Part shown: positions 1 to 16,855 of the stretch, piece after piece | Position numbering within the stretch: position 1 is the first letter of the stretch | How the letters are laid out: each line of letters opens with the position of its first letter | IMG/VR virus record: IMGVR_UViG_3300025687_000316 | Coordinates: 1-24,305 of that record | From: a virus | DNA: 24,305 bases | Strand: one strand, 5' to 3' | The notes under the pieces: generated by a model | Told to the model about the DNA's origin: nothing | Databases searched by the model: none | The model's input: only the letters and a program-made list of their open reading frames with translations | Position numbers and translations under genes: made by a program

Positions 1-98
1 TCATAGGTAACGAGGTCAGAAATACCAATCAACTTCCCTGCCCATATATTTGAGTCCTTCCAGTATTCAATCGTGCCGTATTGATCTTTGTATTTCAT
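1..98 (-). CDS. Hypothetical phage protein, C-terminus cut off by window edge
   Basis: The first 32 codons of a leftward gene are present and the reading frame is open to the window edge. The ATG (98-96) overlaps the TGA stop of the preceding gene in an ATGA junction, the same coupling seen at many junctions in this leftward operon. The visible N-terminus is polar and aromatic (MKYKDQYGTIEYW). No family can be assigned from so short a piece. It is called a gene because of the open frame, the tight coupling and the co-directional context. Confidence 0.6.
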   Translation of the reverse strand, partial: MKYKDQYGTIEYWKDSNIWAGKLIGISDLVTY

Positions 99-385
99 TC
101 CTCTACCTCCACCCATTTATCTTCGGATGGGACACGCTTAGAGTGATTTGCACCTACCACCATCTTATCTTCACGATGCCACTGCAATACTCCATCCACT
201 AACCAAGCCTCTAGCTTGATCTTCTTGGTGGCTTTCTTGATGCGATAGTCATTGACGATCCAATCCCAGTCAGGATCGTTGTTTAAGTAAGAATCAATCC
301 ACTCATTTCTGCTTGCCTCAACCTCACCACCATCAGCGTAGTGCTGCATTACTTTGATGGCTTCTAGTGTTTCTTCTCTAGTCAT
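95..385 (-). CDS. Hypothetical small phage protein with a WDW...YRI motif
   Basis: A 96-residue protein. I chose the ATG at 385 because GGAG sits 8 nt upstream; a GTG three codons earlier is also in frame. The N-terminus (MTREETLEAIKVMQHYADG) is a predicted helix, followed by a DWDWIVNDYRI segment and an acidic C-terminus ending VEVEE. Short phage proteins with a W-x-W...YRI segment are common in early regions and have no known activity that I can name. The start overlaps the end of the upstream gene by 8 bp and the stop overlaps the next start by 4 bp, so it belongs to a coupled operon. Confidence 0.72.
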   Translation of the reverse strand: MTREETLEAIKVMQHYADGGEVEASRNEWIDSYLNNDPDWDWIVNDYRIKKATKKIKLEAWLVDGVLQWHREDKMVVGANHSKRVPSEDKWVEVEE

Positions 386-554
386 CCTCGTCACTCCAGT
401 ATTCGTTCAATTCAGGCGGTTTGCGGCTCAGCTTCTTAAACTTCATCGGAACCCACTTGGTGCTGCCTTCATACATCACTTGGAAGTCCCAACGCTCTCC
501 TTTTGACCAGCCACGGCCTTCTGTCCACTCAACTCGGCGAATATCTTTAATCAT
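378..554 (-). CDS. Hypothetical small phage protein
   Basis: A 58-residue basic and aromatic protein starting MIKDIRRVEW, with a lysine-rich middle (KFKKLSRK) and an acidic tail (SDEDD). The ATG at 554 overlaps the stop codon of the upstream gene. I preferred it over an in-frame start six codons earlier, which would overlap the neighbour more deeply. A GAGGGG lies about 12 nt upstream, so initiation probably depends on translational coupling. No domain is recognised. It is supported by the open frame and by packing between two other leftward genes. Confidence 0.65.
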   Translation of the reverse strand: MIKDIRRVEWTEGRGWSKGERWDFQVMYEGSTKWVPMKFKKLSRKPPELNEYWSDEDD

Positions 555-735
555 CTTTCTTAAACCCCTCACGCAATTCGTACACGGCTTCTAACAAGTC
601 GTCCTGTGAATCAAAATCACGCGTTGTCAATAACATGATCACTTGGTCAATAGCAAAAGTGCCAATCGAAGTAAACATGTCTTCGATTTCGCTCTTTGGT
701 ATTGTAACTACTTCTTCTTTCCAGATTGGTTCCAT
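547..735 (-). CDS. Hypothetical small acidic phage protein
   Basis: A 62-residue protein, rich in Asp and Glu and probably helical in its second half (DDLLEAVYELREGF). I do not recognise a family. It has no clear Shine-Dalgarno sequence and its start lies 28 bp inside the end of the preceding gene, so it may rely on coupling. Its stop overlaps the next start. The composition looks like a soluble host-takeover or accessory protein, but that is only inference. Confidence 0.6.
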   Translation of the reverse strand: MEPIWKEEVVTIPKSEIEDMFTSIGTFAIDQVIMLLTTRDFDSQDDLLEAVYELREGFKKDD

Positions 736-929
736 GATTTAAACCTGTGTGGGTCCCATTTTCGCCATGAACTGGCCTTCGCTGCTCGGTGGCCCGCCTC
801 GGAGCGGGTGCAGAGTGGTGCATTGAATGCATCCTCCTCTGACCAACCCCGCTTTAGGCGACCTTCAACCGTTTCAACCCTGAGACCCGCTTCCTTACAT
901 TTTTTAACGAATTCGGGATCTCTTTTCAT
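708..929 (-). CDS. Hypothetical protein with an N-terminal GRLKRGWS-EEA-like DNA-binding segment
   Basis: A 73-residue protein. Residues about 17-35 (VETVEGRLKRGWSEEDAF) resemble the short helical motif R-x-K/R-R-G-W-S/T-x-E-x-A found in phage DNA-binding and homing-endonuclease-associated modules. That similarity is from memory and untested. The C-terminal half is basic and serine-rich and looks unlike the N-terminal half, so a frameshift near base 815 is conceivable. The ATG lies 2 nt after the TAA of the antirestriction-like gene, with only a weak GGA upstream. Its end runs 28 bp into the next gene. Confidence 0.5.
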   Translation of the reverse strand: MKRDPEFVKKCKEAGLRVETVEGRLKRGWSEEDAFNAPLCTRSEAGHRAAKASSWRKWDPHRFKSWNQSGKKK

Positions 930-931
930 TG

Positions 932-1363
932 TTAATCCAAGAATCTGTAGATTGCAGCTACTTCTTCATCTTCCAAGTTGTTATACGCCCAATCTTTCAA
1001 ATCAGAATACAACTTGCAATACCGACTCGCTTTGCGCTCGTTGTTGTTATCATAAAAATGCCAACACAACTTATTGTATGCCATAATATTGACCGCCACG
1101 CTTGCAACTCTACCACTCATAGCGATGTTTTCTTGCAAACCATCATTGCGAGCTGTCACCTCTTCATCGGTGCTCCACACAATCACGGGGATGTCGCCTT
1201 TTATCGTGTTGGCAAATTCCCAATAACCACCGTTGTACTCTTTAACCAATCTACTCATGATGTTAAAAATGAGCTGTTCTACGCGCAGCCCATCCACACC
1301 GAATTCGCTTGGTAAAAAGTCCAAACGGTCATCATCTGAGCAGTAATTAAGCAAAGTTTCCAT
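932..1363 (-). CDS. ArdB/KlcA-like antirestriction protein
   Basis: A 143-residue protein resembling the ArdB/KlcA family (Antirestrict, PF03230), whose members block type I restriction enzymes in vivo by a mechanism other than DNA mimicry. Visible features are the signature YNGGYWEF at residues 43-50, the AMSGRVASVAVNIMAYN helix near 81-97, and the C-terminal helix ending EEVAAIYRFLD, where family members end in a similar AIFRAID-type segment. Length matches the family (about 140). I chose the ATG at 1363 because GAGG lies 7 nt upstream; an in-frame upstream start would begin within the leader hairpin and promoter region. It is the first gene after a sigma-70-like promoter at 1420-1448. Family assignment is from motif recognition, not a search. 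Confidence 0.85.
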   Translation of the reverse strand: METLLNYCSDDDRLDFLPSEFGVDGLRVEQLIFNIMSRLVKEYNGGYWEFANTIKGDIPVIVWSTDEEVTARNDGLQENIAMSGRVASVAVNIMAYNKLCWHFYDNNNERKASRYCKLYSDLKDWAYNNLEDEEVAAIYRFLD

Positions 1364-1392
1364 ATCATTTCCTCTATTGCGGTCTATTAACA

Positions 1393-1411
1393 GGGGCCGC
1401 CTATCGACCCC
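1393..1411 (-). promoter_or_regulatory. 5'-terminal stem-loop of the antirestriction transcript (GGGGTC-N7-GGCCCC)
   Basis: On the minus strand GGGGTC and GGCCCC can form a 6-bp stem (one G-U pair) closing the 7-nt loop GATAGGC. It begins about two bases after the expected start of transcription from the 1420-1448 promoter. The core GGTCGATAG recurs at the same place after the 7651-7679 promoter. It may stabilise the mRNA or be a protein-binding site in RNA or DNA. Confidence 0.55.
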
Positions 1412-1419
1412 ATATGCAT

Positions 1420-1448
1420 ATGATATCATACACCCCCATCGCAGTCAA
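1420..1448 (-). promoter_or_regulatory. Sigma-70-like promoter for the antirestriction gene cluster
   Basis: On the minus strand a TTGACT -35 (1448-1443) and a TATCAT -10 (1425-1420) are separated by 17 bp. The -35 lies in a small palindrome, GCAGTTGACTGC, which could be an operator. The promoter sits just after the mazZ-like gene and reads into the antirestriction gene and the small genes beyond, giving them a supply of transcript independent of the replication cluster. Confidence 0.7.
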
Positions 1449-1459
1449 CTGCTGAGTGA

Positions 1460-1741
1460 TTAAACATGACTCATAATACCGAGTTCTTTATTGAATTTCC
1501 ACTGACGATTTTTATTAATAACCATCTTTTCAATAATCGCTTCTTCCAAATTAATACCATTTAATTCGGCCAAGTCCGCTAGCAAAATAAAAACATCGGC
1601 ATACTCGTGCGCCTCTTCCGGACATTTGGTTAATTCCCCGATCTCTTCAAAGAATTTTACCAATACCCCGGCTTTGGTGCGGTCTGGGAAGACCGTGTTA
1701 CACCAATTAGAGATTTCCTTTTGAGCTGTTAGTATTTCCAT
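1460..1741 (-). CDS. mazZ: MazG-like nucleotide pyrophosphohydrolase, probable MazZ
   Basis: A 93-residue all-alpha NTP pyrophosphohydrolase of the MazG/DUF550 type. The metal-binding pattern is visible: EEIGE at residues 32-36, then EYADV at 46-50, then E-K-x-x-x-N-K-N-R-x-W near 71-81, the last being typical of DUF550-like members. In Z-genome phages the MazZ enzyme hydrolyses dGTP (and dATP) to the monophosphate, and the dGMP made is the substrate of PurZ. Here it lies directly downstream of purZ, which is why I call it MazZ rather than a general MazG. The ATG at 1741 has GGAAAG about 8 nt upstream; a longer frame back to 1828 would overlap purZ and adds a non-conserved N-terminus. The MazZ label is context inference, the MazG fold call is firmer. 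Confidence 0.82.
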   Translation of the reverse strand: MEILTAQKEISNWCNTVFPDRTKAGVLVKFFEEIGELTKCPEEAHEYADVFILLADLAELNGINLEEAIIEKMVINKNRQWKFNKELGIMSHV

Positions 1742-1847
1742 CTTTCTTTCCAAAAATTCGGTCCCAATTATCTTCGAATTGTTTGCGGTCCTGAATGGGA
1801 CGCGGCTTGCTGCCCTTCCCACCATCACTTTTCTTCGACGTTTTCAT
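1707..1847 (-). CDS. Small SDGGKGSKPRP...NWDRIFGKK protein nested between purZ and mazZ
   Basis: A 46-residue gene that would be missed by a length cut-off. A strong GAGGA lies about 8 nt before the ATG at 1847, inside the last codons of purZ, and it ends with TAA at 1709-1707 inside mazZ. The protein is Gly/Lys-rich at the N-terminus (SDGGKGSKPRP, residues 7-17) and has NWDRIFGKK at residues 27-35. Small phage proteins with a GGKG-x-x-PRP start and a W-D-x-I-F-G end occur in many unrelated phages, to my knowledge without an assigned function. Its codons overlap purZ by 23 bp and mazZ by 35 bp in other frames. Coding status rests on the Shine-Dalgarno, the conserved motif and the placement. 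Confidence 0.8.
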   Translation of the reverse strand: MKTSKKSDGGKGSKPRPIQDRKQFEDNWDRIFGKKDGNTNSSKGNL

Positions 1848-2853
1848 TTAACGGTCCTCTTCCGATGTAGGCCACCCGACCCCCGCTTTGCTCAATACCA
1901 TGAATGATAGTATTCAGCGCCGATGGATCACAATAATTAGCAAAATTCAAAAAGATCTCGTCCGGTTCCACGATTTCAATAAAATCTTTGATTTGCGCTT
2001 GCGAGAATGTGAACACGCGACGCGGCAACTTGGTCACGGTCGTGTATTCGGTCTCCACGCCAATATCTTCAAACGTAATTTCGCGCTGATCTTCATAACA
2101 CGGCCCGCTTGATTCGGTCATGTTACCATCTGCATCGTAACGGTTAGCCACGCGAATCGGGAAGGTCCGTGCGACCCCGACTACATGCATATCTTTCAGG
2201 AAACGACGCGGCAGATCAAGGTCCACCATCAGCTGCTGTGGCGTGCATTCGCGACTTGTACACTTCGGCCAAAACCCACGATTGATGCCCAACGAGAAAC
2301 CTTGTGCGCCCTCGATTTGAACAATTTCCCCCATGTTTACGATGGTGTTCCACCAGTGGGCGTCAACAACATTCATTACTGGCGGCAATTCGCTGTCTAC
2401 AGCCAGCGTTCCCTTGCGTGCGATCTTCATCATCAAAGCCGCCCCGGACCCCTTGCGGGTACTCCCGATCTTCGCGTGCTCTTCTGATGCCTCCAACTGG
2501 CGGTGCTCGTCAGTCAATACCATCGCAGCTTCGTGTATATACACAGCCACATCTTTCAAATGCGGAAGAATTTGAATTGCATTGTTCCATTCAATCATAA
2601 ATGCTTCTACATTGAGAACCGTCCCCGGCCCCAACATTAAGCGCTTCAAACGCTTTGACACGATGCCGTTAGCCAGCATAGTGTGCTTTAGCTCGCGGTG
2701 TCCTTCTTCCGTTTTGAAGAAACTGGTATGACCAGCGTTGGGCGCCCAAGCTGTCATAATGGTGTCGGGTTCATATTTTTCAGCAAAGTAGCCCGCCGCT
2801 AATCCTTTGCCGGTTGATCCAAATTGTGCATCAACAATCGTAATAATTTTCAT
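1825..2853 (-). CDS. purZ: PurZ: 2-aminoadenylosuccinate (ADGSA) synthetase
   Basis: A 342-residue homologue of adenylosuccinate synthetase. PurZ joins aspartate to dGMP with nucleotide triphosphate hydrolysis; host PurB and kinases then give dZTP, the 2-aminoadenine nucleotide. The N-terminal nucleotide loop reads QFGSTGKG (residues 10-17) where PurA has QWGDEGKG. The PurA catalytic base Asp13 is thus Ser13, the diagnostic PurZ change. Also visible are NAGHT (39-43, catalytic His42), IGSTRKGSG (129-137), EGAQG (181-185), ARTFPIRVANR (228-238) and TKLPRR (274-279). The length is short like archaeal PurA and phage PurZ, not the roughly 430 residues of bacterial PurA. I chose the ATG at 2853 because GAGG lies 6 nt upstream and it places the loop as in PurA; an upstream in-frame ATG at 2907 adds 18 residues. 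It sits between PrimPol and mazZ. Confidence 0.93.
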   Translation of the reverse strand: MKIITIVDAQFGSTGKGLAAGYFAEKYEPDTIMTAWAPNAGHTSFFKTEEGHRELKHTMLANGIVSKRLKRLMLGPGTVLNVEAFMIEWNNAIQILPHLKDVAVYIHEAAMVLTDEHRQLEASEEHAKIGSTRKGSGAALMMKIARKGTLAVDSELPPVMNVVDAHWWNTIVNMGEIVQIEGAQGFSLGINRGFWPKCTSRECTPQQLMVDLDLPRRFLKDMHVVGVARTFPIRVANRYDADGNMTESSGPCYEDQREITFEDIGVETEYTTVTKLPRRVFTFSQAQIKDFIEIVEPDEIFLNFANYCDPSALNTIIHGIEQSGGRVAYIGRGPLNENVEEK

Positions 2854-2893
2854 TGGTACCTCTTCGTCTATGACACTATCAAAATCTGGCCAA

Positions 2894-3142
2894 TTATACT
2901 TCGGCATTTTTTAGATGCCCTCTCATCAAATTACCTAACGCCATGCGCTGCATACCAACATTCAAATGTTCGTATTTAGCTTTCAATTCCTTGGCTTTTA
3001 GCCCCAAGGCCGCTGCAACTACGCTGTACACTTCTTCAATGTGGAGGCCGCGCAGCTTTTCTGCCACATCATCACCGTTATCAATATAACGGAAACCATC
3101 TTTGGTTTTACCCGTAACAAATTTTTCTACATTAGGACGCAT
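2894..3142 (-). CDS. Hypothetical phage protein, paralogue of the 8940-9425 C-terminal domain
   Basis: An 82-residue protein. Its body (DNGDDVAEKLRG, then HIEEVY, then KYEHLN, then MRGHL at the end) aligns over about 65 residues with the C-terminal half of the protein at 8940-9425, which reads DNNDEVAAGLRG, WIETLY, RYGHLN and VRGHL at matching positions. It looks like a compact helical domain that is common in phage early regions and has no function I can name. The ATG follows the PrimPol stop immediately, with GAGGAG 6 nt upstream, so it is co-translated with PrimPol and precedes purZ. A role in replication or nucleic-acid binding is only a guess from position. Confidence 0.8.
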   Translation of the reverse strand: MRPNVEKFVTGKTKDGFRYIDNGDDVAEKLRGLHIEEVYSVVAAALGLKAKELKAKYEHLNVGMQRMALGNLMRGHLKNAEV

Positions 3143-5305
3143 TTAATACTCCTCTTCAATAGGATTTGCTTCTGGGAGTGGTCCATCAAACACGAACACA
3201 TTTGCAAGCTTGCCGTTTACGGTTCGTCTTCTCTTCACCATCCCAAATTCTTTCAATGCATCAGCAGCCATGTTCATGTTGAACGCTTTAATATTCTGAA
3301 CAGAGTGCTGCGCAAAGTCTGTTAAAAATTCAGCTGATGATACATAGCCCTTTTGCTTGTACCTCTGGATTGCGAACGCCAGCCCGCCATCCATCGCCGC
3401 CAATATATTTTCTACCATGTGCTTTTCGTGTATCTCGTGATTGCGTGATGTAAACCCTATGTCTCTCGTCTCTTTCTGTATGTCTTCTTCTGTTACTGAC
3501 TTGTACAGGTGATAAGCTTCACCCCACAGTTGGTCCCTGTTTTCAATTAACCACTTTAAATCGATTGTGTTATTTTCGTTGTATTTTGGATCAATTTCAA
3601 TAATCCAATACCGGCGGTTCCCCGTGCGGTCTGTTAGGAATGAATCATCATTTGTTGTACCAATAAACACACATGTTCTCGGGTGTGATGTGACTTTGTT
3701 GCGGTACAACTCCCGATAATCATCCGATGTGCGTGTAATAAACGACTTTAGCGTGTTGTGGTCTTTAGTGGACCTGAATGACGACAATTCGGACAACTCA
3801 ATAATCCATTTGCTGCTGGCCAAACGTTGCGCTTCCACATTATCCATCATCCCGCTAAAATCGCAGTGCCATTGATTATTATCAAATGCTAGGATTTTTG
3901 TAAACGCGGATTTACCACAATGCTGCTTCCCTTTCAGAATGACCATGTGCTCCATCGGGCACCCCGGCTCAAATACCCGCCGCACTGCTGTGCGGAACCA
4001 CGCTTTTGACATGGTGGAGTATATCGATCCTTTGACCCCGAACAGGTCTTGGAACAGGGTTGGGATTCGTTCTTGCCCATCCCATTTACACTGTTTGATC
4101 CTGTCCGCTAGGAAGTTTACTGAATTCGTGGTCGCTGCAATATCAATAAGGACTTTGTACAGCCGCTCTGGCCCGAACGATACTCGGTACTTGTTGGCAA
4201 TGTAAACAGACAGCCCCAATTCGTGTCCTTCTTCAAACGATGACCCAATTGCCGGTGGATTGAACCCATATTTTTCAACGTCCGGCATCGGGTTTACATA
4301 CACTAGGTCATTTGTAATTTCGTCTCTTGCCACCAGATTCGATAGTTGGGAATCATGGCGTACAATCAATGATAGGTTTTCTGTCGTCTTTTCGATTGCC
4401 CCTTTCCCTGTGAAGCTTAACCCCGGAATGTCGGTATCGGCTACACCCACGTTTCTGATAATGAATTGGAAAACGTCATCGGTTAGGATGTCCCGCAATT
4501 TACTTGACCCGGCTACTGGTTCCCCCTCTTCCCATCGTCTGATCGTCCCTCTTACAGATGAATTCAGGCGTTTTACCATTTCTTCATCTTGGGCTTCCGT
4601 CATCACCCCCTCTAGTGCTGATATAATCAGGTCGGCCGGGTAATCGGATTTTAGGAGTATTGCAGTCAGGTGGATTGAGAGGTCATCTCTTATTCCTGAG
4701 TCCCAACACTTCAAGATGACGCTTGCAATTGCCAGCAACTTCAGGCGCTTGTATAACGGCTCAATGTCCTCAATAAGGAGCGGCTGTGATTCTGTTTCCC
4801 ACTTCACCGGCTCCCCGTTTGGGTGCATTGATGGCGGGAACATCGTTTGCGAATATTTGCCGGTCTTGGTCAGCCCCCGCAGTTCCATCACCATAGACTT
4901 TTCGTCTTCTTGGACCAAGCTCTTTGGCATCCGCCATTGCTGGATCTTTACACCTTCATCATCAAATTCCGGCGATAATGAATACACCCAGTGGGATGAC
5001 GGCGCCGTTTGACGCCCGAACACTGCAGTTTCTGGTAGGATGTATTTTGCCAGACCCCGGGCTTCTGGGCAGTCGAGGTCGATATCAATAACGCGCTTCC
5101 CGAGCAGCACCCCCAAGTTTATGGGGCTTTGGGCGTATTGTTTTAGGAGATCGAAGTCTAGCGGTTTTTCGTTCCAGTTGTCCTCTAGTGGTTGTTTGGT
5201 TCCGTACTTTAGTGGTATTACGAACCAGCTTTGATCATTATAATATTTGGCGATAGATTCAATTGTCTTACGGTGGTTGTAAGACCTTAAGTCCAATACA
5301 TTCAT
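3143..5305 (-). CDS. Primase-polymerase fused to VirE/VapE-type helicase
   Basis: A 720-residue replication protein. The N-terminal ~170 residues look like a bifunctional primase-polymerase (AEP, Prim-Pol) domain: acidic metal site DIDLD at 74-78, SSHWVY with His105, ELRG at 141-144, and the PPSMHPNGEPVKW segment at 157-169. The C-terminal ~300 residues are a VirE/VapE-like (PF05272) P-loop ATPase: Walker A GKQHCGKS (459-466), Walker B region WIIELSEL (500-507), sensor FIGTTND (547-553) and arginine-rich GNRRYW (562-567). Together it would prime, copy and unwind phage DNA. Cyanophage S-2L, whose genome contains Z instead of A, also uses a PrimPol-type replicase, and this gene lies just upstream of purZ and mazZ. 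The ATG has GAGGA 6 nt upstream, immediately after the terminator at 5321-5343. Confidence 0.9.
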   Translation of the reverse strand: MNVLDLRSYNHRKTIESIAKYYNDQSWFVIPLKYGTKQPLEDNWNEKPLDFDLLKQYAQSPINLGVLLGKRVIDIDLDCPEARGLAKYILPETAVFGRQTAPSSHWVYSLSPEFDDEGVKIQQWRMPKSLVQEDEKSMVMELRGLTKTGKYSQTMFPPSMHPNGEPVKWETESQPLLIEDIEPLYKRLKLLAIASVILKCWDSGIRDDLSIHLTAILLKSDYPADLIISALEGVMTEAQDEEMVKRLNSSVRGTIRRWEEGEPVAGSSKLRDILTDDVFQFIIRNVGVADTDIPGLSFTGKGAIEKTTENLSLIVRHDSQLSNLVARDEITNDLVYVNPMPDVEKYGFNPPAIGSSFEEGHELGLSVYIANKYRVSFGPERLYKVLIDIAATTNSVNFLADRIKQCKWDGQERIPTLFQDLFGVKGSIYSTMSKAWFRTAVRRVFEPGCPMEHMVILKGKQHCGKSAFTKILAFDNNQWHCDFSGMMDNVEAQRLASSKWIIELSELSSFRSTKDHNTLKSFITRTSDDYRELYRNKVTSHPRTCVFIGTTNDDSFLTDRTGNRRYWIIEIDPKYNENNTIDLKWLIENRDQLWGEAYHLYKSVTEEDIQKETRDIGFTSRNHEIHEKHMVENILAAMDGGLAFAIQRYKQKGYVSSAEFLTDFAQHSVQNIKAFNMNMAADALKEFGMVKRRRTVNGKLANVFVFDGPLPEANPIEEEY

Positions 5306-5320
5306 TTCACATCCTCAAAG

Positions 5321-5343
5321 AAAAAGCGGGGATTCCGCCCCGC
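5321..5343 (-). terminator. Rho-independent terminator or attenuator just ahead of PrimPol
   Basis: On the minus strand GCGGGG and CCCCGC form a 6-bp GC-only stem with loop CGGAAT, followed by TTTTTCTTT. It lies 7 bp after the stop of the 5350-5568 gene. The PrimPol ribosome binding site begins right after the T-tract, so this cannot simply be the end of an operon: PrimPol, purZ and mazZ need read-through or a promoter inside the upstream gene. Confidence 0.82.
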
Positions 5344-5349
5344 ACGGCC

Positions 5350-5568
5350 TCAATTACCCGATGAGGAACGGGAGGATGTCTCCATCTTTTGGACGACCCG
5401 GTACGCTGCACGCAGCATCTTTTTTGTTTCCGGTATGAATTCCGATTCGCCCACATAATTTCGCGCAATATAACGCGAGAAAATGGATCTAAAGGTCTTA
5501 TTTCTACATAGAGCCGTCATAACTTGGGAGTCAAGAGACCCGGATTCCAAATCATTGATAAAGCTCAT
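5350..5568 (-). CDS. Hypothetical small phage protein
   Basis: A 72-residue protein starting MSFINDLESGSLDSQV, basic in the middle (FSRYIARNY, KKMLRAAYRVVQK) and ending in a Ser-rich tail (SSRSSSGN). It looks helical and soluble. I do not recognise a family. GAGG lies about 8 nt before the ATG. It is preceded by an 85-bp leader that contains a perfect hairpin (5602-5620) and possibly a promoter (5648-5676), and is followed directly by a terminator. It may be expressed as a short separate transcript. Confidence 0.75.
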   Translation of the reverse strand: MSFINDLESGSLDSQVMTALCRNKTFRSIFSRYIARNYVGESEFIPETKKMLRAAYRVVQKMETSSRSSSGN

Positions 5569-5601
5569 TGAAAAAACCTCTTAGTATCCCCTATTAAATC
5601 T

Positions 5602-5620
5602 TTGGTCATTTGATGACCAA
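5602..5620 (-). promoter_or_regulatory. Perfect 8-bp inverted repeat in the leader of the 5350-5568 gene
   Basis: TTGGTCAT, a 3-nt loop, and ATGACCAA form a perfect 8-bp stem in either strand. There is no T-tract on either side, so it is not a terminator. Its core GGTC-N7-GACC has the same spacing as the GGTC-N7-GGCC leader hairpins at 1393-1411 and 7628-7642. It could be an operator or an RNA element. Confidence 0.55.
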
Positions 5621-5647
5621 GAAGCTTAGCTATCATCTTCTTTATGA

Positions 5648-5676
5648 ATTGTATCATAGCGTGTCCGTGTTGATAA
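5648..5676 (-). promoter_or_regulatory. Possible sigma-70 promoter upstream of the 5350-5568 gene
   Basis: On the minus strand TTATCA (5676-5671) and TACAAT (5653-5648) are separated by 17 bp. The -10 is good and the -35 is fair. It overlaps the end of the 5654-5995 gene and precedes an otherwise unexplained 85-bp leader. Confidence 0.45.
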
Positions 5677-5995
5677 TTACATCCCCGAAGTAGAGCACTC
5701 CGTCGTTTGCGTGGCATTCAGGCAATTCATCAAACATGTGAACAGTCATCATGTCGTCTGGGTCTTTGAAATCTTCGGCTTCCATAATCCCAATAACCCC
5801 GGCATCTACCGAGTACGAGTTCCCCATATTGTCAAAATAATAACCGTCCCCATGCGCTGTGTGAAAGGCCATCACTTGTTTGCCACTTGATGTGTAACCC
5901 ACGGGTTTACGGAAGAAATCAGAACTCTCTAATAGTCCTTCCCACTCTTCGGATGGGACCACATAACATGGGTCCCCAATCAAATAAGCCTTCAT
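5654..5995 (-). CDS. IGDPCYV-family hypothetical phage protein
   Basis: A 113-residue acidic protein. The N-terminus MKAYLIGDPCYVV is the signature of a phage protein family of unknown function found in many unrelated tailed phages; the following W (residue 18) is also typical. The rest alternates short beta-like and Gly-rich segments (TAHGDGYYFDNMGNSYSVDAG), consistent with a small beta-sandwich fold. The ATG overlaps the upstream TGA in an ATGA junction and has a GGGGG run nearby upstream. It may be bicistronic with the 5992-6234 gene. Confidence 0.8.
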   Translation of the reverse strand: MKAYLIGDPCYVVPSEEWEGLLESSDFFRKPVGYTSSGKQVMAFHTAHGDGYYFDNMGNSYSVDAGVIGIMEAEDFKDPDDMMTVHMFDELPECHANDGVLYFGDVIINTDTL

Positions 5996-6234
5996 ACTGG
6001 TACCCCCGCCCCACGTTTTGGGGTCGATTTGATGCTTTTGTAGACTTCCATCGCTCTTTCTGCTGTTTCACGATCGTGGGTCGTCGCATATTCAATAAAA
6101 TGCTGGCCATCACGATCCATGTCCCAGATGATTCTCCTATCCCTAAATAGGGGACCAATCCACAGGTATTCGTATCTAAAGAATCCCCACCTACGCACGG
6201 CGTACAAACCGTCTTCGAATTTTACTACTTTCAT
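5992..6234 (-). CDS. Hypothetical basic phage protein
   Basis: An 80-residue basic, Trp- and Arg-rich protein (YAVRRWGFFRYEYLWIGPLF) ending with a KSTPKRGAGVPV tail. A helix near residues 55-70 contains RETAERAMEVYKSIKS. No family is recognised. There is no clear Shine-Dalgarno; the start lies 10 bp after the stop of the membrane-anchored regulator gene, so coupling is likely. The stop overlaps the next start. Confidence 0.68.
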   Translation of the reverse strand: MKVVKFEDGLYAVRRWGFFRYEYLWIGPLFRDRRIIWDMDRDGQHFIEYATTHDRETAERAMEVYKSIKSTPKRGAGVPV

Positions 6235-6244
6235 TTGAAGTAAA

Positions 6245-6511
6245 TCACTGAAAATAAATTATTGAAATCGCGGCCGCCAACACAGCTGCGGATAATAAAA
6301 GAATGACCACAAATTCGTTGTCCTTCTTGGCTTTTGGGGTTTTCTTGGGTTTGCTGTCGGCGAAAAGAATCTCCAGCGCCATACGGTGATTTGGGCGCGG
6401 CTTAACCACCCCTTTTTCCCATCTCACGATCGTAGTGGCTGTGACCCCGATTGCTTCAGCCAGTTGTGCTTGAGTCATGCCGCGTGCTTTACGCATTTCT
6501 TTAAGATTCAT
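6245..6511 (-). CDS. XRE-family (HTH_3) regulator with a C-terminal transmembrane helix
   Basis: An 88-residue protein. Residues 3-50 form a Cro/C1-type helix-turn-helix: KEMRKARGMTQAQLAEAIG, then VTATTIVRWEKG, with the usual Q-x-x-LA and W-E-x-G positions. A Lys/Pro linker (KPKKTPKAKK, 54-63) follows. The protein ends with a hydrophobic stretch (residues about 67-87, VVILLLSAAVLAAAISII) long enough to cross the membrane once. The predicted topology is a cytoplasmic DNA-binding head tethered by its C-terminus. The ATG has AGG about 10 nt upstream and overlaps the previous gene by 11 bp. It could be a membrane-tethered repressor or a small RodZ-like protein; the HTH call is firm, the role is not. 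Confidence 0.85.
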   Translation of the reverse strand: MNLKEMRKARGMTQAQLAEAIGVTATTIVRWEKGVVKPRPNHRMALEILFADSKPKKTPKAKKDNEFVVILLLSAAVLAAAISIIYFQ

Positions 6512-6674
6512 AAGTACCTACCTTATTTCCATTGCTGTCGTACAGCGGTTTGTTGTGACTGAAATCTTTTAAATGATCCACTACAGTCAATAAAATACGG
6601 GCGACCTCCGCCCTCCACTCCGGGGATTTGTGCTCCCCAAATGCATCATTTGTCGTCTTGATTTCTATTTTCAT
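6501..6674 (-). CDS. Small conserved phage protein (EVARIL...LxDxNGNxVG type)
   Basis: A 57-residue protein. The pattern TNDAF near the N-terminus, EVARILLTVVDHL in the middle and PLYDSNGNKVG at the end is recognisable from many phage genomes, with no function known to me. I chose the ATG at 6674 because GGAG lies 7 nt upstream and the conserved part starts there; the longer frame to 6719 reads back into the upstream gene. It overlaps both neighbours. Confidence 0.78.
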   Translation of the reverse strand: MKIEIKTTNDAFGEHKSPEWRAEVARILLTVVDHLKDFSHNKPLYDSNGNKVGTYES

Positions 6675-6822
6675 AATATCGCTCCACATATAAACAGTCA
6701 GCCGGGTTGGTGGTATCACATTCGTACATAGTCGGGCTGTCCCCCGTTCCGTAATAATCGTGAACCGCTATACCATATTGGCACTCGTGACAACAGTCGG
6801 CTTTTTCCATCAATTCATCCAT
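6646..6822 (-). CDS. Small Cys-rich phage protein, putative zinc-binding
   Basis: A 58-residue gene below the usual length cut-off. The protein has five cysteines: CCHEC at residues 10-14, then YEC at 33-35 and DCLYVE from 42, a C-x2-C ... C ... C arrangement that could bind zinc. The segment YYGTGDSPTMYEC is highly specific and resembles small phage proteins of unknown role. I chose the ATG at 6822 because GGGAG lies about 8 nt upstream; a second ATG at 6810 forms a TGATG junction with the upstream stop. It overlaps the 6810-7280 gene by 13 bp and the 6501-6674 gene by 29 bp. Confidence 0.75.
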   Translation of the reverse strand: MDELMEKADCCHECQYGIAVHDYYGTGDSPTMYECDTTNPADCLYVERYYENRNQDDK

Positions 6823-7280
6823 ACCGGTTTCTCCCTTTTGGTGTACTTCAATAAGTGCGCCTTGCTGCCTTTGTAATAACGACGATAGGAATCAACAGCA
6901 TCATCTGATTTGTAAACATCCGGCATCGCCAATGCAAACGGGGTCATTGGCTTTGATGGGATTCCCTTAGGCGTGCTGGCCACAATCTTGTGCAGCTTTT
7001 CAAATGTCAAGTGGGACTTTCCGTACCGGTGCGTGTACTCGCCGGCCAGCGCATAAAAGTGCCGGACCAGCCACCCATAGTTCTCGTCACTGCTCTTCGC
7101 CCACAACACGCACGGATGGTGTACATGGGTCGAGCGGTACAGGAGGGCATCCGTGTTGCCGTACGCTCTTTGAATGGTGGACAAAATCTGCCCGGTTTCA
7201 AGAGTCATTTTAACCACATGATTATCACACTGCATCTGGGCAGCCTGCACGGGGTTGTGATCAAGAATAAAGATATTCAC
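6810..7280 (-). CDS. Conserved phage protein of unknown function (CDxHVVKM family)
   Basis: A 156-residue protein starting at GTG, with an excellent AGGAGG 6 nt upstream. The order of motifs is distinctive: NIFILDHNPVQAAQMQCDNHVVKM at the N-terminus, HPCVLWAKSSDENYGWL near 55-71, EYTHRYGKSHLT near 81-92, MPDVYK, then YRRYYKGSKA. The family is widespread in tailed phages and has conserved His, Cys and Trp positions that suggest an enzyme, but I know of no demonstrated activity. It overlaps the upstream gene by 20 bp. Confidence 0.83.
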   Translation of the reverse strand: MNIFILDHNPVQAAQMQCDNHVVKMTLETGQILSTIQRAYGNTDALLYRSTHVHHPCVLWAKSSDENYGWLVRHFYALAGEYTHRYGKSHLTFEKLHKIVASTPKGIPSKPMTPFALAMPDVYKSDDAVDSYRRYYKGSKAHLLKYTKREKPVWMN

Positions 7281-7449
7281 GCAATTCCTCCTCTATTTCA
7301 GCTATTAATTCACGCATCGATGTGATCTCGGCTTCACATTTTGCGACCCGGGCTTTAGCGTTGTGAATCGCATCATATTTTAGTACGATCTTGGTAAATT
7401 CATTCAATGTAATCAGACCATTTTCATATTGTTGATACGCTTTTTTCAT
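7261..7449 (-). CDS. Hypothetical coiled-coil protein
   Basis: A 62-residue, mostly helical protein. Residues 27-60 have a charged heptad-like pattern (AIHNAKARVAKCEAEITSM, then IAEIEEELREYL), suggesting a short coiled coil. GAGGG lies about 6 nt before the ATG, which overlaps the preceding stop in an ATGA junction. It ends 20 bp inside the next gene. Function unknown. Confidence 0.72.
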   Translation of the reverse strand: MKKAYQQYENGLITLNEFTKIVLKYDAIHNAKARVAKCEAEITSMRELIAEIEEELREYLYS

Positions 7450-7610
7450 GCTGCCCTCGAATTGTAGTTGCGGATTGCCACATACTCTTTTTCAGTGGCA
7501 CCATGCGAGTATTCACCAAGACCAACTTCCTCCATTTTGTCATAGAGGGCGTTGTGCGCATTATCTTTGCTGCCGGGGGTGGCATCTAAGACCCAAGATC
7601 CAATGTTCAT
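7446..7610 (-). CDS. Hypothetical protein, first gene after the strong 7651-7679 promoter
   Basis: A 54-residue protein starting MNIGSWVLDATPGSKDNAHN. I chose the ATG at 7610 because GGAG lies 7 nt upstream and the promoter at 7651-7679 would start RNA near 7644, excluding the longer frame that runs back to 7799 through an AT-rich control region. Composition is polar and acidic and no family is recognised. As first gene of the promoter-proximal operon it may be among the earliest products expressed. Confidence 0.72.
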   Translation of the reverse strand: MNIGSWVLDATPGSKDNAHNALYDKMEEVGLGEYSHGATEKEYVAIRNYNSRAA

Positions 7611-7627
7611 TTCTCTTCTCCTATGTC

Positions 7628-7642
7628 GGCCATCTATCGACC
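7628..7642 (-). promoter_or_regulatory. 5'-terminal stem-loop (GGTC-N7-GGCC) of the 7.6 kb leftward transcript
   Basis: On the minus strand GGTC and GGCC pair (one G-U) around the loop GATAGAT, beginning two or three bases after the predicted transcription start. The sequence GGTCGATAG is identical to that at the 5' end of the antirestriction transcript (1393-1411). The stem is short (4 bp), so it may instead be a DNA site. Confidence 0.5.
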
Positions 7643-7650
7643 TTGAAGCA

Positions 7651-7679
7651 AGTATATCAGGCTGAGTGCTGAGTGTCAA
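7651..7679 (-). promoter_or_regulatory. Strong sigma-70 promoter, leftward
   Basis: On the minus strand a perfect TTGACA -35 (7679-7674) and a TATACT -10 (7656-7651) are separated by 17 bp. The start is expected near 7644, about 34 nt before the first ATG at 7610. It drives the gene set 7610 down to at least 5654 and, with read-through, the replication cluster. Confidence 0.88.
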
Positions 7680-8201
7680 GGGTTCTTTGATTAAATATAA
7701 TATGTAATCGGGGGTCAGATAGTATGTAATTGACACACTAATATATAATGAAATACTCAACCTTATTCGGTAGAGTTCGTATATAATTGGGTGTATCATA
7801 GTGTATATGATTGGGGTTCAATTACATACTATTAGAACAGATATCCAACGACCCAAGATTCAAGAAGGACGGGGGCTTTGCCCCTCTTACACACTAACAT
7901 ATATTATTTTCTTTGTTGTTGTTGTAGTAATTAAAAAGAAAGGGGGGAAAAGGGTACAAGAACGGTATAAAAAAAGGAAAATTTCCGAGATAGTATGATA
8001 TGTGTGTATAGTGTGTAACGGAAGGTCTTTGACCGCCCCCGCCGGGGGTCGGAGAGCGGTTTTCCGCGGCCGGTTGTTGAGGGTTGCTCAATTTGGCCCC
8101 GGGTCGGGGGTCGTACGCCCCCGGGTTTATTGATGCCCCTCCTGCGCCCCCGGTGGGCTTCCTTTGGCCTTGATGGGGGTCGGAGGGGGTATTATAGGGG
8201 G
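7680..8201. other. Gene-free control or origin-like region
   Basis: About 520 bp without a credible gene between two blocks of leftward genes. The left part is AT-rich (ATATATAATG, TATAATATG), followed by a polypurine run near 7930-7980 (AAAAAGAAAGGGGGGAAAAG). The right part (8030-8195) is strongly G/C-rich, with repeated GGGGGTC and short hairpins such as CGGGGG-TCGTACG-CCCCCG (8105-8123). A 15-bp inverted repeat (7719-7733 with 7818-7832) and one CTCAAC and one GTTGAG box (7756-7761, 8076-8081) are present. Open frames here lack ribosome binding sites. An origin of replication is possible but unproven. Confidence 0.6.
7719..7832. repeat. 15-bp perfect inverted repeat with 84-bp spacer
   Basis: ATAGTATGTAATTGA at 7719-7733 is the exact reverse complement of TCAATTACATACTAT at 7818-7832. 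The flanks do not match, so the arms are exactly 15 bp. Between them lie AT-rich sequence and a CTCAAC box. Placement just upstream of the leftward promoter suggests regulator or initiator binding sites. No transposase gene is associated, so an insertion sequence is unlikely. Confidence 0.7.
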
Positions 8202-8390
8202 TTAGGCCAAGGAAGGGCGTTCTTTGGCCAACCAGTCTTCGACGCGTTCGGCCCAGTCTGGGTGCTGTTCCTCAAGTTTTGCCAACTCATTTGAGTATTT
8301 GGCCACTTCGCGTTGCGCATTGATGGCTTGCAGGTCCATCAGCCGCGCGACGGTGTGAATGTATAAATCTTTAAATTCGAAGTAATTCAT
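8202..8390 (-). CDS. Hypothetical small helical protein
   Basis: A 62-residue protein (MNYFEFKDLYIHTVARLMD...) predicted to be almost all helix, with a heptad-like region near 25-52 (AQREVAKYSNELAKLEEQH). GGAGG lies about 10 nt before the ATG, which overlaps the upstream stop as ATGA. It is the last gene of the 9425-8202 operon; no terminator with a T-tract follows. Function unknown. Confidence 0.72.
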   Translation of the reverse strand: MNYFEFKDLYIHTVARLMDLQAINAQREVAKYSNELAKLEEQHPDWAERVEDWLAKERPSLA

Positions 8391-8665
8391 GCGTGTTTCT
8401 CCTCCAGCAGCCTTTTCAGATAATCTCGGGCTTCGTCCTCGTATTTTTCATGCCAAAACATGCCGCCGGCGTCCTCGATTGCCTGCCCGGGCTTGCGTTC
8501 CAGCACGACCCATCTATTCTCTTTGATCGCCCGGCGCCCACTGCGGGTCACAAATGGGGTGTCCATGCCCTTTCGCAATTCGATCGTGCCCGGCTGGTGT
8601 GGGTTTGGGTGTGATTCAATCAAAACACCCGGCTTGCACGCTGCTTTTTTATCTTCCCATTTCAT
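8387..8665 (-). CDS. Hypothetical phage protein
   Basis: A 92-residue protein with a possible small beta-rich N-terminal part (GVLIESHPNPHQPGTIELRKG) and a helical acidic and basic C-terminus (EKYEDEARDYLKRLLEEKH). The ATG overlaps the upstream TAA in a TAATG junction. No family is recognised. Its place in the first leftward operon suggests early expression. Confidence 0.72.
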   Translation of the reverse strand: MKWEDKKAACKPGVLIESHPNPHQPGTIELRKGMDTPFVTRSGRRAIKENRWVVLERKPGQAIEDAGGMFWHEKYEDEARDYLKRLLEEKHA

Positions 8666-8865
8666 TAGTCATCTCCATAAGTGTTGACAAAATTGGCCAA
8701 TTCTTCAATGTCGGCCTTGGCCATGGTGTCGGTGTAAAACACCAGCAGCTCGTTTGCCATGTCGCTGGCACTTAGATCGCTGATGTAATTTTCTGCTGCG
8801 TTTTCCAACCGTTCCAGCAGCAGGTCTCTGCGAAATTTGTTTAGTGATTCAAGTGCGTTTTTCAT
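8665..8865 (-). CDS. Hypothetical small acidic helical protein
   Basis: A 66-residue protein starting MKNALESLNKFRRDLLLERL, predicted all-helical and acidic. I chose the ATG at 8865 because of the strong leader AATAGGAGAATAGACATG, which is identical over 18 bp to the leader of the gene at 9425. An upstream in-frame start at 8943 would run through the terminator at 8910-8931 and is rejected. Function unknown. Confidence 0.75.
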   Translation of the reverse strand: MKNALESLNKFRRDLLLERLENAAENYISDLSASDMANELLVFYTDTMAKADIEELANFVNTYGDD

Positions 8866-8909
8866 GTCTATTCTCCTATTGAATGACGGGTTTTGTAAAA
8901 CCTCGTCAG

Positions 8910-8931
8910 AAAACCCCGGCCGAAGCCGGGG
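8910..8931 (-). terminator. Rho-independent terminator between the first and second leftward genes
   Basis: On the minus strand CCCCGGC-TTCG-GCCGGGG forms a 7-bp GC stem with a UUCG tetraloop, followed by TTTT. It lies just after the stop of the 8940-9425 gene. Genes at 8865 and beyond are downstream without an obvious new promoter, so partial read-through or antitermination is implied. Confidence 0.8.
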
Positions 8932-8939
8932 GTCGGGGG

Positions 8940-9425
8940 TCACACTTCAACTTTCACGCGGTTCAGATGGCCGCGCACGCGGTTGCGCAGATTCATTGAT
9001 TGCTGACCCTTGTTCAAGTGGCCGTAGCGCTCGCGCAATTCCGATTCTGGCACGCCGAGGATTTTGGCAACGGTCGGATAGAGCGTTTCGATCCACATGC
9101 CGCGCAGGCCTGCTGCAACCTCGTCGTTATTGTCCACGACCTTGCGGCCGGATTCGCTCACTGCGTCGTCGTGGGTCACATAGCGTGGGCGATAGCGCTT
9201 AAGCTGGTTGCTCATGGTGTGGACCTCTTCTTCTTCGAGGTCGTCCATTGTGAAATCGGTCTGATCGCCGAATTCGCTCATCATTGCGATATCTTCATCG
9301 GTCAGGATTTCGAGGTCCGCGCTGCTGCGGATCTTTTCAATCTCGCCGTCGAAGTCAACTGTTAGCCAAGCGCCTTTCTTTTCGATGATGGTGCCAAGGC
9401 CGGTTTCTGTCTTGAGGTAGTTCAT
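8940..9425 (-). CDS. Two-domain hypothetical protein, first gene of the leftward operon
   Basis: A 161-residue protein. Residues 1-40 (GLGTIIEKKGAWLTVDFDGEIEKI) look like a small beta-barrel (KOW/SH3-like). An acidic linker (EDIAMMSEFGDQTDF...EEEEV) follows. Residues about 78-161 form the domain shared with the 82-residue protein at 2894-3142 (DNNDEVAAGLRG, ELRERYGHLN, RVRGHL). The ATG has AGGAG about 8 nt upstream and lies about 40 nt downstream of the predicted start of the 9475-9503 promoter. First position after a strong promoter suggests a regulatory or very early role. Function is unknown. Confidence 0.8.
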   Translation of the reverse strand: MNYLKTETGLGTIIEKKGAWLTVDFDGEIEKIRSSADLEILTDEDIAMMSEFGDQTDFTMDDLEEEEVHTMSNQLKRYRPRYVTHDDAVSESGRKVVDNNDEVAAGLRGMWIETLYPTVAKILGVPESELRERYGHLNKGQQSMNLRNRVRGHLNRVKVEV

Positions 9426-9474
9426 GTCTATTCTCCTATTAGGTCAAGCAGCACCATGCCACTTGATGCTGCGC

Positions 9475-9503
9475 ATTGTATCATTACTCAACTATGTTGT
9501 CAA
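9475..9503 (-). promoter_or_regulatory. Strong sigma-70 promoter for the leftward early operon
   Basis: On the minus strand a perfect TTGACA -35 (9503-9498) and a TACAAT -10 (9480-9475) are separated by 17 bp. A GTTGAG box lies inside the spacer (9492-9487) and another is 3 bp upstream of the -35 in opposite orientation (9506-9511), so a repressor bound there would occlude polymerase. Confidence 0.88.
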
Positions 9504-9553
9504 CGGTTGAGGAGAGATACTCAACTCAGGATATGCTCAACTATCCACTCAAC
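9487..9553. repeat. Cluster of CTCAAC boxes, likely operators
   Basis: CTCAAC occurs at 9487-9492, 9520-9525, 9536-9541 and 9548-9553, with the reverse GTTGAG at 9506-9511: five copies in 67 bp. The two bases before each are Y-R (TA, TA, TG, CA). The boxes overlap the leftward promoter. More copies occur at 7756, 8076 (inverted), 9796 and 9828, all in non-coding DNA. Confidence 0.65.
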
Positions 9554-9554
9554 A

Positions 9555-9595
9555 AAACCGTTTTTCATTTGGTGCGAAACCGTTTTTCATTTGGT
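9555..9595. repeat. Two tandem 19-bp repeats with 22-bp period
   Basis: AAACCGTTTTTCATTTGGT occurs exactly at 9555-9573 and 9577-9595, separated by GCG. The 22-bp period is about two turns of the helix, so two bound proteins would face the same side. It adjoins the CTCAAC cluster. Confidence 0.75.
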
Positions 9596-9666
9596 CAGGA
9601 TAAACAATTTGTCAAGCCGGGGGTCGTTTGTCCGGGGTCGCTTTTTTCCGGTTGGGCGCGTTCCGT

Positions 9667-9684
9667 CCGCGTTCCGCGGTTTTT
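9667..9684 (+). terminator. Possible short rightward terminator
   Basis: CCGCG-TTC-CGCGG followed by TTTTT. The stem is only 5 bp but all G/C. It would block any transcript coming from the repeat region before the rightward promoter at 9861. Weak evidence. Confidence 0.3.
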
Positions 9685-9860
9685 CTCCAAATATAGGGGA
9701 ACCCCTTAAAAACAACGGGTCCCCCGGAAAAAGGAAAAATCGGTTCTTAAATTCGTGGCCATTAATTTCCGGCAAGGCATATAATATATTCAGCGCTCAA
9801 CACATACTATGTATATTTTTTCGGGTGCTCAACGGGTCCCCGACCCCCATATACATATAT

Positions 9861-9889
9861 TTGATTTCCAGGGCATTTTGTGTTAAACT
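9861..9889 (+). promoter_or_regulatory. Probable promoter for the packaging and head genes
   Basis: TTGATT (9861-9866) and TAAACT (9884-9889) are separated by 17 bp, and TG one base before the -10 gives an extended -10. Both boxes are moderate matches. Transcription would start near 9896, shortly before the strong GAGGAGG ribosome binding site of the first rightward gene. Confidence 0.62.
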
Positions 9890-9921
9890 CGCCCCATCAG
9901 TGTATTTGAGGAGGACTCAAA

Positions 9922-10227
9922 ATGGCTGCTTCTATTAAGCCAAAAACAATGTCTGAGGGCGAGCGTAAAAAGGCGGTTAGCCGCATCATTGCAGCCCAGT
10001 ACCCGAATTTTGACCCGGTTCTTGCCATGATTGATATGGCCCATGAAGAAGAAGTTGAGCGGTCAATCAAGTTCCAGTGTCTCAAGGAAGTTGCCCAGTA
10101 CCTTTATCCGAAACTCAAGTCTGTTGATATTCAGGTCGAGGACAACACTGGCAAATCCCGTGATGAAATTATTCAACGCTTGAAGCAGTTGGATAATAAT
10201 TTTATTGAAGGCGAAGTGACTCACTGA
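9922..10227 (+). CDS. Putative terminase small subunit
   Basis: A 101-residue protein, first gene of the rightward late operon, with GAGGAGG upstream of the ATG. Residues 25-70 (AAQYPNFDPVLAMIDMAHEE, then FQCLKEVAQYLYPKLKSVDI) match the pattern FDP-x-x-A-M-I-x-x-A...EVAQY-x-x-P-K-x-K found in small terminase-type proteins of podovirus-like phages, where a helical N-terminal part binds the packaging site. The C-terminus is charged (RDEIIQRLKQLDNN). The role is inferred from motif and position; the large terminase lies one gene downstream. The stop overlaps the next start as TGATG. Confidence 0.68.
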   Translation: MAASIKPKTMSEGERKKAVSRIIAAQYPNFDPVLAMIDMAHEEEVERSIKFQCLKEVAQYLYPKLKSVDIQVEDNTGKSRDEIIQRLKQLDNNFIEGEVTH

Positions 10228-15296: not shown

Positions 15297-15468
15297 CTGT
15301 GAATTGCAGGATTGTGTGCACAACACTGATATGGTTTGTCAGGCACCAGAAATCCAAATTATTGCTAGCAATGGTATGGCTGAATGTTCCTCATACGAAT
15401 CTTCTGAAGGTATGAGCGAAGGTTTGATGGGTGGCCCGGGTGGCCAAATGGACAAGGCGCTCTACTGA
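15283..15468 (+). CDS. Small Cys-rich DUF1540-like protein
   Basis: A 61-residue protein. The cysteine pattern KCNCELQDCVHNTDMVCQA, then EIQI, then ECSSY (residues 3-39) resembles the DUF1540 type, small putative metal-binding domains. The C-terminus is Gly/Met-rich (SEGLMGGPGGQM). I chose the ATG at 15283 because AGGAG lies 5 nt upstream; a start 11 codons earlier has no ribosome binding site. It sits between the portal and a virion-type gene, so it may be a minor structural or assembly protein. Its stop overlaps the next start. Confidence 0.78.
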   Translation: MAKCNCELQDCVHNTDMVCQAPEIQIIASNGMAECSSYESSEGMSEGLMGGPGGQMDKALY

Positions 15469-16103
15469 TGGGTAAGTTCTTCGGTTCAGATTCTGTACAA
15501 CGGGTTGTGCAGCCGGTTGCTAACCAAGCAGAAGTTGACCGTCTGCAGCAGCAGTATAATGCATTGGGTGACGCTGCCCCAACTGCTGATATGCAGTGGA
15601 ATCGTCAAGCACCGGAAGCGGTTGCAAAAACGATTCGAAAGGAACAGGGTGTGGCTAGCTTGCCCGGTGTAAGATTTGCAGAAACCCCAATGATGGATGC
15701 GTATAACCCGGCGTATACCGATTATATGCAGAAGTTGAATCAATATGATTATGATAAGAGCCAATTTGATCGCAATCTGGCGTTGGAAAATGCGCGGTTG
15801 GCGTCTGATTGGTCCGGGCAGCGTGCGGATATAATGAACCGTATGAACCAGTTAAAGGCTAACCCCGCGATTCAACAGGGAATTGGTAGTCTTGGGGGTT
15901 TCTTTGGTTCAATTATTCGGCCTGTGATTTCTGCTCCGGAGATTAGCCAGCGGTCTGCCTTGACTCCTCAAGAAATTGCATATCAAGATTTGCAAAAACA
16001 GTACGCGGATAACCCGCTGCAGAGACAAGTGTTTACCCCACCGCCGATGGCCACTCAGTATCAGCCGTTGGCGACCACTATGCCAACCCAGTATCAATTC
16101 TAG
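15468..16103 (+). CDS. Hypothetical virion-associated protein
   Basis: A 211-residue protein, Gln-, Ala- and Pro-rich, with predicted helices (VDRLQQQYNAL, YTDYMQKLNQYDYDKSQFD, ARLASDWSGQRADIMNRM), a central hydrophobic Gly-rich stretch (GIGSLGGFFGSIIRPVI, about 140-156) and a disordered C-terminus (PPPMATQYQP and PTQYQF). The gene is coupled to the DUF1540-like gene by a TGATG junction. The composition and location between portal and scaffold fit a minor head or internal protein. No family is recognised. Confidence 0.72.
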   Translation: MGKFFGSDSVQRVVQPVANQAEVDRLQQQYNALGDAAPTADMQWNRQAPEAVAKTIRKEQGVASLPGVRFAETPMMDAYNPAYTDYMQKLNQYDYDKSQFDRNLALENARLASDWSGQRADIMNRMNQLKANPAIQQGIGSLGGFFGSIIRPVISAPEISQRSALTPQEIAYQDLQKQYADNPLQRQVFTPPPMATQYQPLATTMPTQYQF

Positions 16104-16112
16104 GAGACGGTC

Positions 16113-16841: not shown

Positions 16842-16855
16842 CATGGAGAAAAACC

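Follow-up and report, generated by a model that had tools for sequence, protein, structure and literature searches.

Phages whose DNA carries 2-aminoadenine (Z) in place of adenine have been described, and Z biosynthesis, MazZ, DatZ and DpoZ are already established (PMC8342488, PMC8065100, PMC8599892, PMC12884076, PMC8515928). PMC12884076 sorts these Z phages into at least seven groups. The podoviral Z phages phiVC8, ZP6 and BUCT555 share the gene order dpoZ, primase/helicase, purZ, mazZ, datZ. Acinetobacter siphophages of the SH-Ab 15497 group carry a DUF550-type MazZ, fused to DUF5664, and S-2L combines PurZ, MazZ-1 and DatZ with a PrimPol that has a VapE domain. Here we describe a further candidate Z locus, on the 24,305-base linear IMG/VR record IMGVR_UViG_3300025687_000316 (the window, by which we mean this whole stretch), together with a small protein family, found at this locus and in other Z phages, to which we give the provisional convenience name ZaP. 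The window lacks end repeats and is therefore probably a fragment of a phage genome. Our best explanation, in which we have high confidence as a whole, is that it belongs to a tailed phage predicted to replace adenine with Z, its genome being a recombinant mosaic of a Z module in a virion background like that of the pelagiphage HTVC023P.

The features on which the analysis centres are the following.

1460-1828, minus strand: mazZ of MazZ-1/DUF550 type, predicted to convert dGTP to dGMP
1825-2907, minus strand: purZ, predicted succino-2-amino-dAMP synthetase (NF038379, E 9.2e-87)
2894-3142, minus strand: stand-alone ZaP-domain protein of 82 amino acids (aa)
3143-5305, minus strand: fusion of PrimPol (archaeo-eukaryotic primase, AEP) and VapE/DUF5906 helicase (Prim-Pol PF09250, E 1e-9; VapE PF05272, 1e-66; PF19263, 7e-9)
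8940-9425, minus strand: second ZaP copy, 161 aa, with an N-terminal SH3/tudor-like barrel and a C-terminal ZaP domain (phrog_8941, 8e-8; family profile match; AlphaFold; fold search)

Along the minus strand the order is PrimPol-VapE, the 82-aa open reading frame (ORF), purZ, mazZ and a weakly matched antirestriction gene, with intergenic gaps of 0, -14, -4 and 30 nucleotides (nt): the 82-aa ORF begins directly after the PrimPol stop codon and overlaps purZ by 14 nt, and purZ overlaps mazZ by 4 nt. The first-pass annotation had described PrimPol, PurZ and MazZ as adjacent and co-directional. It had the genes and their coordinates right (all three are on the minus strand), but PrimPol and PurZ are not direct neighbours; it overlooked the ORF between them, and it likewise missed that the virion genes have a non-Z origin.

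Its reading of the PurA homologue as a PurZ is borne out. The protein matches the NCBIfam PurZ model NF038379 (E 9e-87) over model positions 2-290 of 293, finds its best PDB matches in S-2L PurZ (7odx, 2e-68) and phiVC8 PurZ (6fm1, 3e-64), and also matches PHROG 1211 and Pfam PF00709. Its catalytic motif GSTGKG has Ser where PurA has Asp13 (GDEGKG in Escherichia coli PurA). This Ser is invariant in our PurZ alignment, and the count in PMC12884076 finds it in every phage PurZ and PurZ0 sequence (100%). Our alignment also shows the loop YTTVTKLPRR and the insertion after PIRV to be retained. Placement in a tree with known PurZ and PurA, a check proposed with the first-pass annotation, puts the protein with PurZ and not with PurZ0 or PurA: in a tree of 102 rows, the window PurZ and that of a sister contig (below) lie inside the PurZ clade (83-row fork, Shimodaira-Hasegawa-like approximate likelihood ratio test 98), apart from PurZ0 (fork 98) and E. 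coli PurA, on a long stem of their own (1.61), the exact position within PurZ being insecure in this quick tree with its long outgroup branches. By tree path the nearest named group is that of SH-Ab 15497, at 47% identity. We thus have a predicted succino-2-amino-dAMP synthetase using dGMP and aspartate.

The adjoining MazG-like hydrolase is, from its sequence, a MazZ of the MazZ-1/DUF550 type, as had been proposed. It matches Pfam PF04447 (1.5e-8), its best PDB match is S-2L MazZ (7ody, 3.7e-14), and the alignment keeps equivalents of S-2L E34, E35, E38, E50, D53, I56, D60, K76, N80, R83, W85, M93 and H95, including the metal-binding residues and the guanine-reading I56/D60 described in PMC8342488.

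Searches of IMG/VR by PurZ alone and by PrimPol alone found a single related contig, IMGVR_UViG_3300005512_000282 (the sister, L002), whose PurZ is 86% and PrimPol 92% identical to those of the window. Since it is syntenic with window positions 730-18424, at about 70-89% nucleotide identity, the gene arrangement of the window is not an assembly artefact. The sister extends past the left end of the window, and there it encodes DatZ (L002:13504-14013; phrog_7076 dATP triphosphohydrolase, 1.6e-22; S-2L DatZ 6zpa, 4e-8), with the metal, phosphate and HD residues retained in alignment with S-2L, and DpoZ (NF038380, 837 bits against a cut-off of 500; best PDB match phiVC8 DpoZ 7pbk, 2e-151). This DpoZ shows insertions 2 and 3 as well as L455, F459 and G548, all of which are given for the phiVC8 DpoZ clade in PMC8599892; the PolA of HTVC023P and of DSL-LC04 has neither insertion 2 nor F459 nor G548. 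As the sister holds PurZ, MazZ, DatZ and DpoZ, the lineage has the complete set. Also encoded beyond the window end are a stand-alone DUF5664 protein (PF18909, 6e-22), a VRR-NUC-type protein, an SNF2-like helicase and a single-stranded DNA-binding protein. DUF5664 (L002:12745-13146) and the DUF550 MazZ (L002:11077-11445), fused in SH-Ab 15497, are two genes in the sister, where the former may be an extra dATP/dGTP hydrolase.

With phiVC8, ZP6 and BUCT555 the lineage has in common PurZ, MazZ, DatZ, a phiVC8-type DpoZ and a PrimPol-helicase adjoining purZ. It differs from them in its VapE-type helicase (PriCT_2/DUF5906-type there), in its virion genes and in the spacing seen in the sister, where datZ lies about 2 kb from mazZ, not adjoining it, and dpoZ lies 7.6 kb downstream of purZ; phiVC8 and ZP6, moreover, have MazZ-2. 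A DUF550-type MazZ and DUF5664 are shared with SH-Ab 15497, but no PrimPol-VapE match was found in the SH-Ab locus. PurZ, MazZ-1, DatZ and a PrimPol with a VapE domain are shared with S-2L, which differs in having neither DpoZ nor a ZaP domain and whose PrimPol half is not otherwise similar. The proposal that the cluster forms a separate branch stands as regards the long purZ stem within the PurZ clade and the unusual gene order, but not as regards a PrimPol-helicase beside purZ, which phiVC8, ZP6 and BUCT555 already have.

The prediction of 2-aminoadenine DNA made in the first-pass annotation is strongly supported by the PurZ and MazZ identities and by DatZ and DpoZ in the sister. In the pathway we propose, MazZ would convert dGTP to dGMP and PurZ would join dGMP to aspartate (both genes are in the window), host PurB and kinases would presumably complete dZTP, dATP would be cleared by DatZ and DpoZ would use dZTP to copy the genome (both genes are seen only in the syntenic sister), and PrimPol-VapE would serve as primase and helicase.

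Three other accounts were weighed. The match to Pfam PF00709 would also suit an ordinary phage PurA working in adenine synthesis, an idea we give next to no credence, because Ser replaces Asp13, the tree places the protein within PurZ, PurZ structures are its best structural matches and a MazZ lies alongside. Replication might instead follow S-2L, which itself replicates in this way (PMC8065100), with PrimPol-VapE as the principal DNA polymerase and the Z content due solely to dATP depletion, as had originally been assumed; PrimPol and VapE domains adjoin purZ and the window has no dpoZ. We consider this very unlikely, given that a full DpoZ, a family A polymerase with the phiVC8-type insertions, is encoded on the syntenic sister, and that phiVC8 and ZP6 hold PrimPol and DpoZ together. 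The likeness to S-2L PrimPol is, besides, confined to the VapE helicase part (37% over 183 aa), and a PDB search with the protein matched only a VapE protein and not S-2L PrimPol. Because the sister carries DpoZ, PrimPol-VapE most probably acts as a primase-helicase, like its counterparts in phiVC8 and ZP6, and does not copy the genome by itself as the S-2L enzyme does. A last alternative is partial or zero substitution, the enzymes shifting the nucleotide pool while the genome stays mostly adenine. When the S-2L Z-cluster was placed in E. coli, only about a quarter of the A in plasmid DNA was exchanged for Z (PMC8342488), but the full PurZ/MazZ/DatZ/DpoZ set is present across the lineage and PMC12884076 calls known ZTGC phages with such sets completely substituted, which makes this alternative improbable.

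Several observations weigh against Z replacement as the reading of the window. The NF038379 score of PurZ, 291 bits, is slightly below the curated cut-off of 300 although the match is full length. The window, as a 24.3-kb fragment, lacks datZ and dpoZ, both of which are on the syntenic sister only, and the sister DatZ departs from S-2L DatZ at three positions (W20 to F, I22 to M, P79 to Q). Window positions 1-730 differ in gene content from the sister while the next 17.7 kb are syntenic, which would reflect local gene turnover beside the Z operon. Palindrome under-representation, sought as a sign of restriction escape, gave an observed/expected ratio of 0.86 for 6-mers in the window, a measure that did not clearly separate Z from non-Z phages. 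The base content of the phage DNA is itself deduced from the genes. For the ZaP part of the proposal, Foldseek searches with both ZaP models gave no PDB match at E<0.001.

The 82-aa protein between PrimPol and PurZ belongs to PHROG 8941 (phrog_8941, 2e-16; function 'unknown'), and a Pfam search returned no family for it. Most ZaP members are 130-300 aa long; their N-terminal part varies, and their conserved C-terminal domain has the consensus gD.vA..LrG..l..vY...A......L...Y.HLN.GMQRMNLGN..R. The window has two copies, the ORF at 2894-3142 and the C-terminal half of the protein at 8940-9425. A spurious ORF at 2894-3142 can be ruled out, as it is 83% conserved at the same place in the sister and is conserved also across many Z phages. 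Two ZaP-domain copies with differing N-terminal parts occur in several Z phages (phiVC8, L005; ZP6, L006; and L018, L070, L016 and L021), and zinc-ribbon-like Cys motifs are seen in some members present as a single copy (L008, L009). The ZP6 homologues lie at L006 4048-4527 and 811-1596, and a phiVC8 homologue lies at L005 5865-6557.

The distribution of ZaP is narrow. A tblastn search of 50,697 phage records (query from another Z phage, E<=0.01) found it in 57, all of them PurZ phages; these are the 60 PurZ records minus S-2L and both Ochrobactrum phage OH records, and none of the remaining non-PurZ records, PurZ0 phages included, was matched. With two further ZaP queries, the phages retrieved were all among these. 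A sensitive profile search of S-2L, OH, three full PurZ0 genomes, HTVC023P and DSL-LC04 yielded no significant match. Near copies are common among the 57 records, and we estimate perhaps seven or eight independent lineages in GenBank; the IMG/VR sets are more diverse. Among IMG/VR contigs gathered by the ZaP domain alone (the best 80 of 247 domain matches, so that distant non-Z members are possible), PurZ is present on 43 of 75, and on all 27 of those at least 35 kb long; the contigs without PurZ are all fragments under 33 kb, and DpoZ is present on the longest of them (32 kb). In the reverse direction, 34 of 35 PurZ contigs longer than 36 kb have the ZaP domain. By contrast, the neighbouring replication proteins of the sister match 3,260 (helicase) and 504 (Pam3_Gp34-like) phage records, many of them non-Z, and the sister DatZ matches 66, Aeromonas and Shewanella phages among them. 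The searches of phage records and by profile, with the absence from bacterial genomes given below, led us to reject a generic phage domain.

PurZ and ZaP occur together on contigs L101 and L104 of Deltaproteobacteria and Gammaproteobacteria metagenome-assembled genomes, which are probably phage contigs, and the genome with L104 has a further ZaP copy on a separate contig (L195); ZaP is absent from 397 other Pseudomonadota genomes. The PHROG library gives neither a function nor a Z-phage link for PHROG 8941, and the association with PurZ comes from the present analysis. We found no description of the family in the open literature that we read or searched, so that an earlier mention is possible.

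AlphaFold models the ZaP C-terminal domain as a short beta hairpin and four helices, with a mean predicted local distance difference test score of 87 when modelled alone. Within the longer protein most of this domain scores about 90-98, and the N-terminal part there is a confident five-stranded barrel with a helix. The barrel resembles the SH3-like HIV integrase C-terminal domain, the UvrD C-terminal domain and Hfq (probability up to 0.99, E at least 0.18), only a hint of likeness to SH3/tudor-like nucleic-acid- or polymerase-binding domains; the fold search with the C-terminal domain gave nothing worth naming.

Our best inference is that ZaP assists with Z-DNA as an adaptor binding nucleic acid or a polymerase, and we put it forward as a hallmark of Z-genome biology that is so far uncharacterised. 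A more definite version, to which we give about an even chance, is that ZaP, to which an SH3/tudor-like barrel would be joined in many members, is an unrecognised dedicated component of the 2-aminoadenine system, recognising Z-DNA or fitting a polymerase to the greater stability of the Z:T helix, and travelling with phiVC8-type PurZ/DpoZ between unrelated phages. ZaP could also co-occur with PurZ merely as part of one inherited (DpoZ) replication module, taking no action on Z-DNA itself: the 57 records include many Vibrio and Acinetobacter strains that are nearly identical, and ZaP is missing from S-2L and OH, the former without DpoZ and the latter with a PolA that lacks insertion 2. We regard this as a substantial minority possibility. 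It fits less well with ZaP in the window phage, which has only 1-2 genes in common with other Z phages, with the fact that ZaP usually does not adjoin purZ, and with the spread of the neighbouring replication genes into non-Z phages. That ZaP is strictly absent elsewhere, yet occurs in a phage that is otherwise unrelated, leads us to favour the adaptor role over a passenger, short of proof.

The virion genes point to another ancestry. The remaining features are listed here.

932-1429, minus strand: ArdB/KlcA-like antirestriction protein, weak (PF03230, 1e-4, below cut-off; phrog_10132, 1e-18; kept in the sister)
11341-12894, plus strand: terminase large subunit, HTVC023P/HTVC027P-like (47-52% identity to HTVC023P, HTVC027P, 023Pt_psg01 and DSL-LC04)
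12894-15296, plus strand: portal protein, HTVC023P-like (phrog_1216, 2e-47; 46-47% to the HTVC023P-type set)
16404-16841, plus strand: GroES-like co-chaperonin in the head module (phrog_3188, 2e-16; equivalent position in HTVC023P-type genomes)
18841-19749, plus strand: major capsid protein, HTVC023P-like (66-69% identity to HTVC023P, DSL-LC04, HTVC027P and 023Pt_psg01)

The terminase, portal, GroES, scaffold-region and capsid genes match the Pelagibacter phages HTVC023P and HTVC027P as well as 023Pt_psg01 and DSL-LC04, and among window ORFs no shorter than 120 aa, 9-11 are shared with HTVC023P-type phages against 1-2 with any known Z phage compared. The replication module is not shared: the window has PrimPol-VapE and the sister DpoZ, whereas HTVC023P-type phages and DSL-LC04 have an annotated primase, a helicase and an ordinary PolA, about 28-31% identical to the sister DpoZ. 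PurZ and ZaP had no match in HTVC023P and DSL-LC04 (whole genomes) or in HTVC027P and 023Pt_psg01 (over 40 kb), and PurZ is unmentioned in a study of 82 HTVC023P-type genomes (PMC9599517). Head genes of this lineage beside a Z module make the genome, very probably, a mosaic, in which the Z module would either have entered or been retained in the HTVC023P-like background. That background appears to be a virion lineage new for Z-DNA, absent among the Z-phage genomes examined, and the window lineage is likely an eighth group beside those counted in PMC12884076.

The antirestriction-like gene lies directly 3' of mazZ and is a possible second anti-restriction layer in a predicted Z-DNA phage. Elsewhere in the window are a pyrimidine-dimer DNA glycosylase-like protein (6810-7280, minus strand; PF03013, 1e-8; phrog_624, 4e-58) and a protein (23006-23935, plus strand) made of many imperfect 'VTGVAGTSALGDETVVAKA'-like repeats, which at the DNA level are too diverged for detection by Tandem Repeats Finder. 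A megablast search of the whole window against phages gave no match.

The HTVC023P-like setting suggests that abundant aquatic phage groups acquire the Z module. The Z:T pair has three hydrogen bonds, and known work covers the synthesis of dZTP and the copying of DNA with it, not how the rest of the infection copes with a Z:T helix. For that missing part ZaP is a specific, testable candidate, since it occurs in nearly every DpoZ-type Z phage and our searches found it in no other phage, and as a marker the ZaP domain could flag Z genomes on contigs without purZ.

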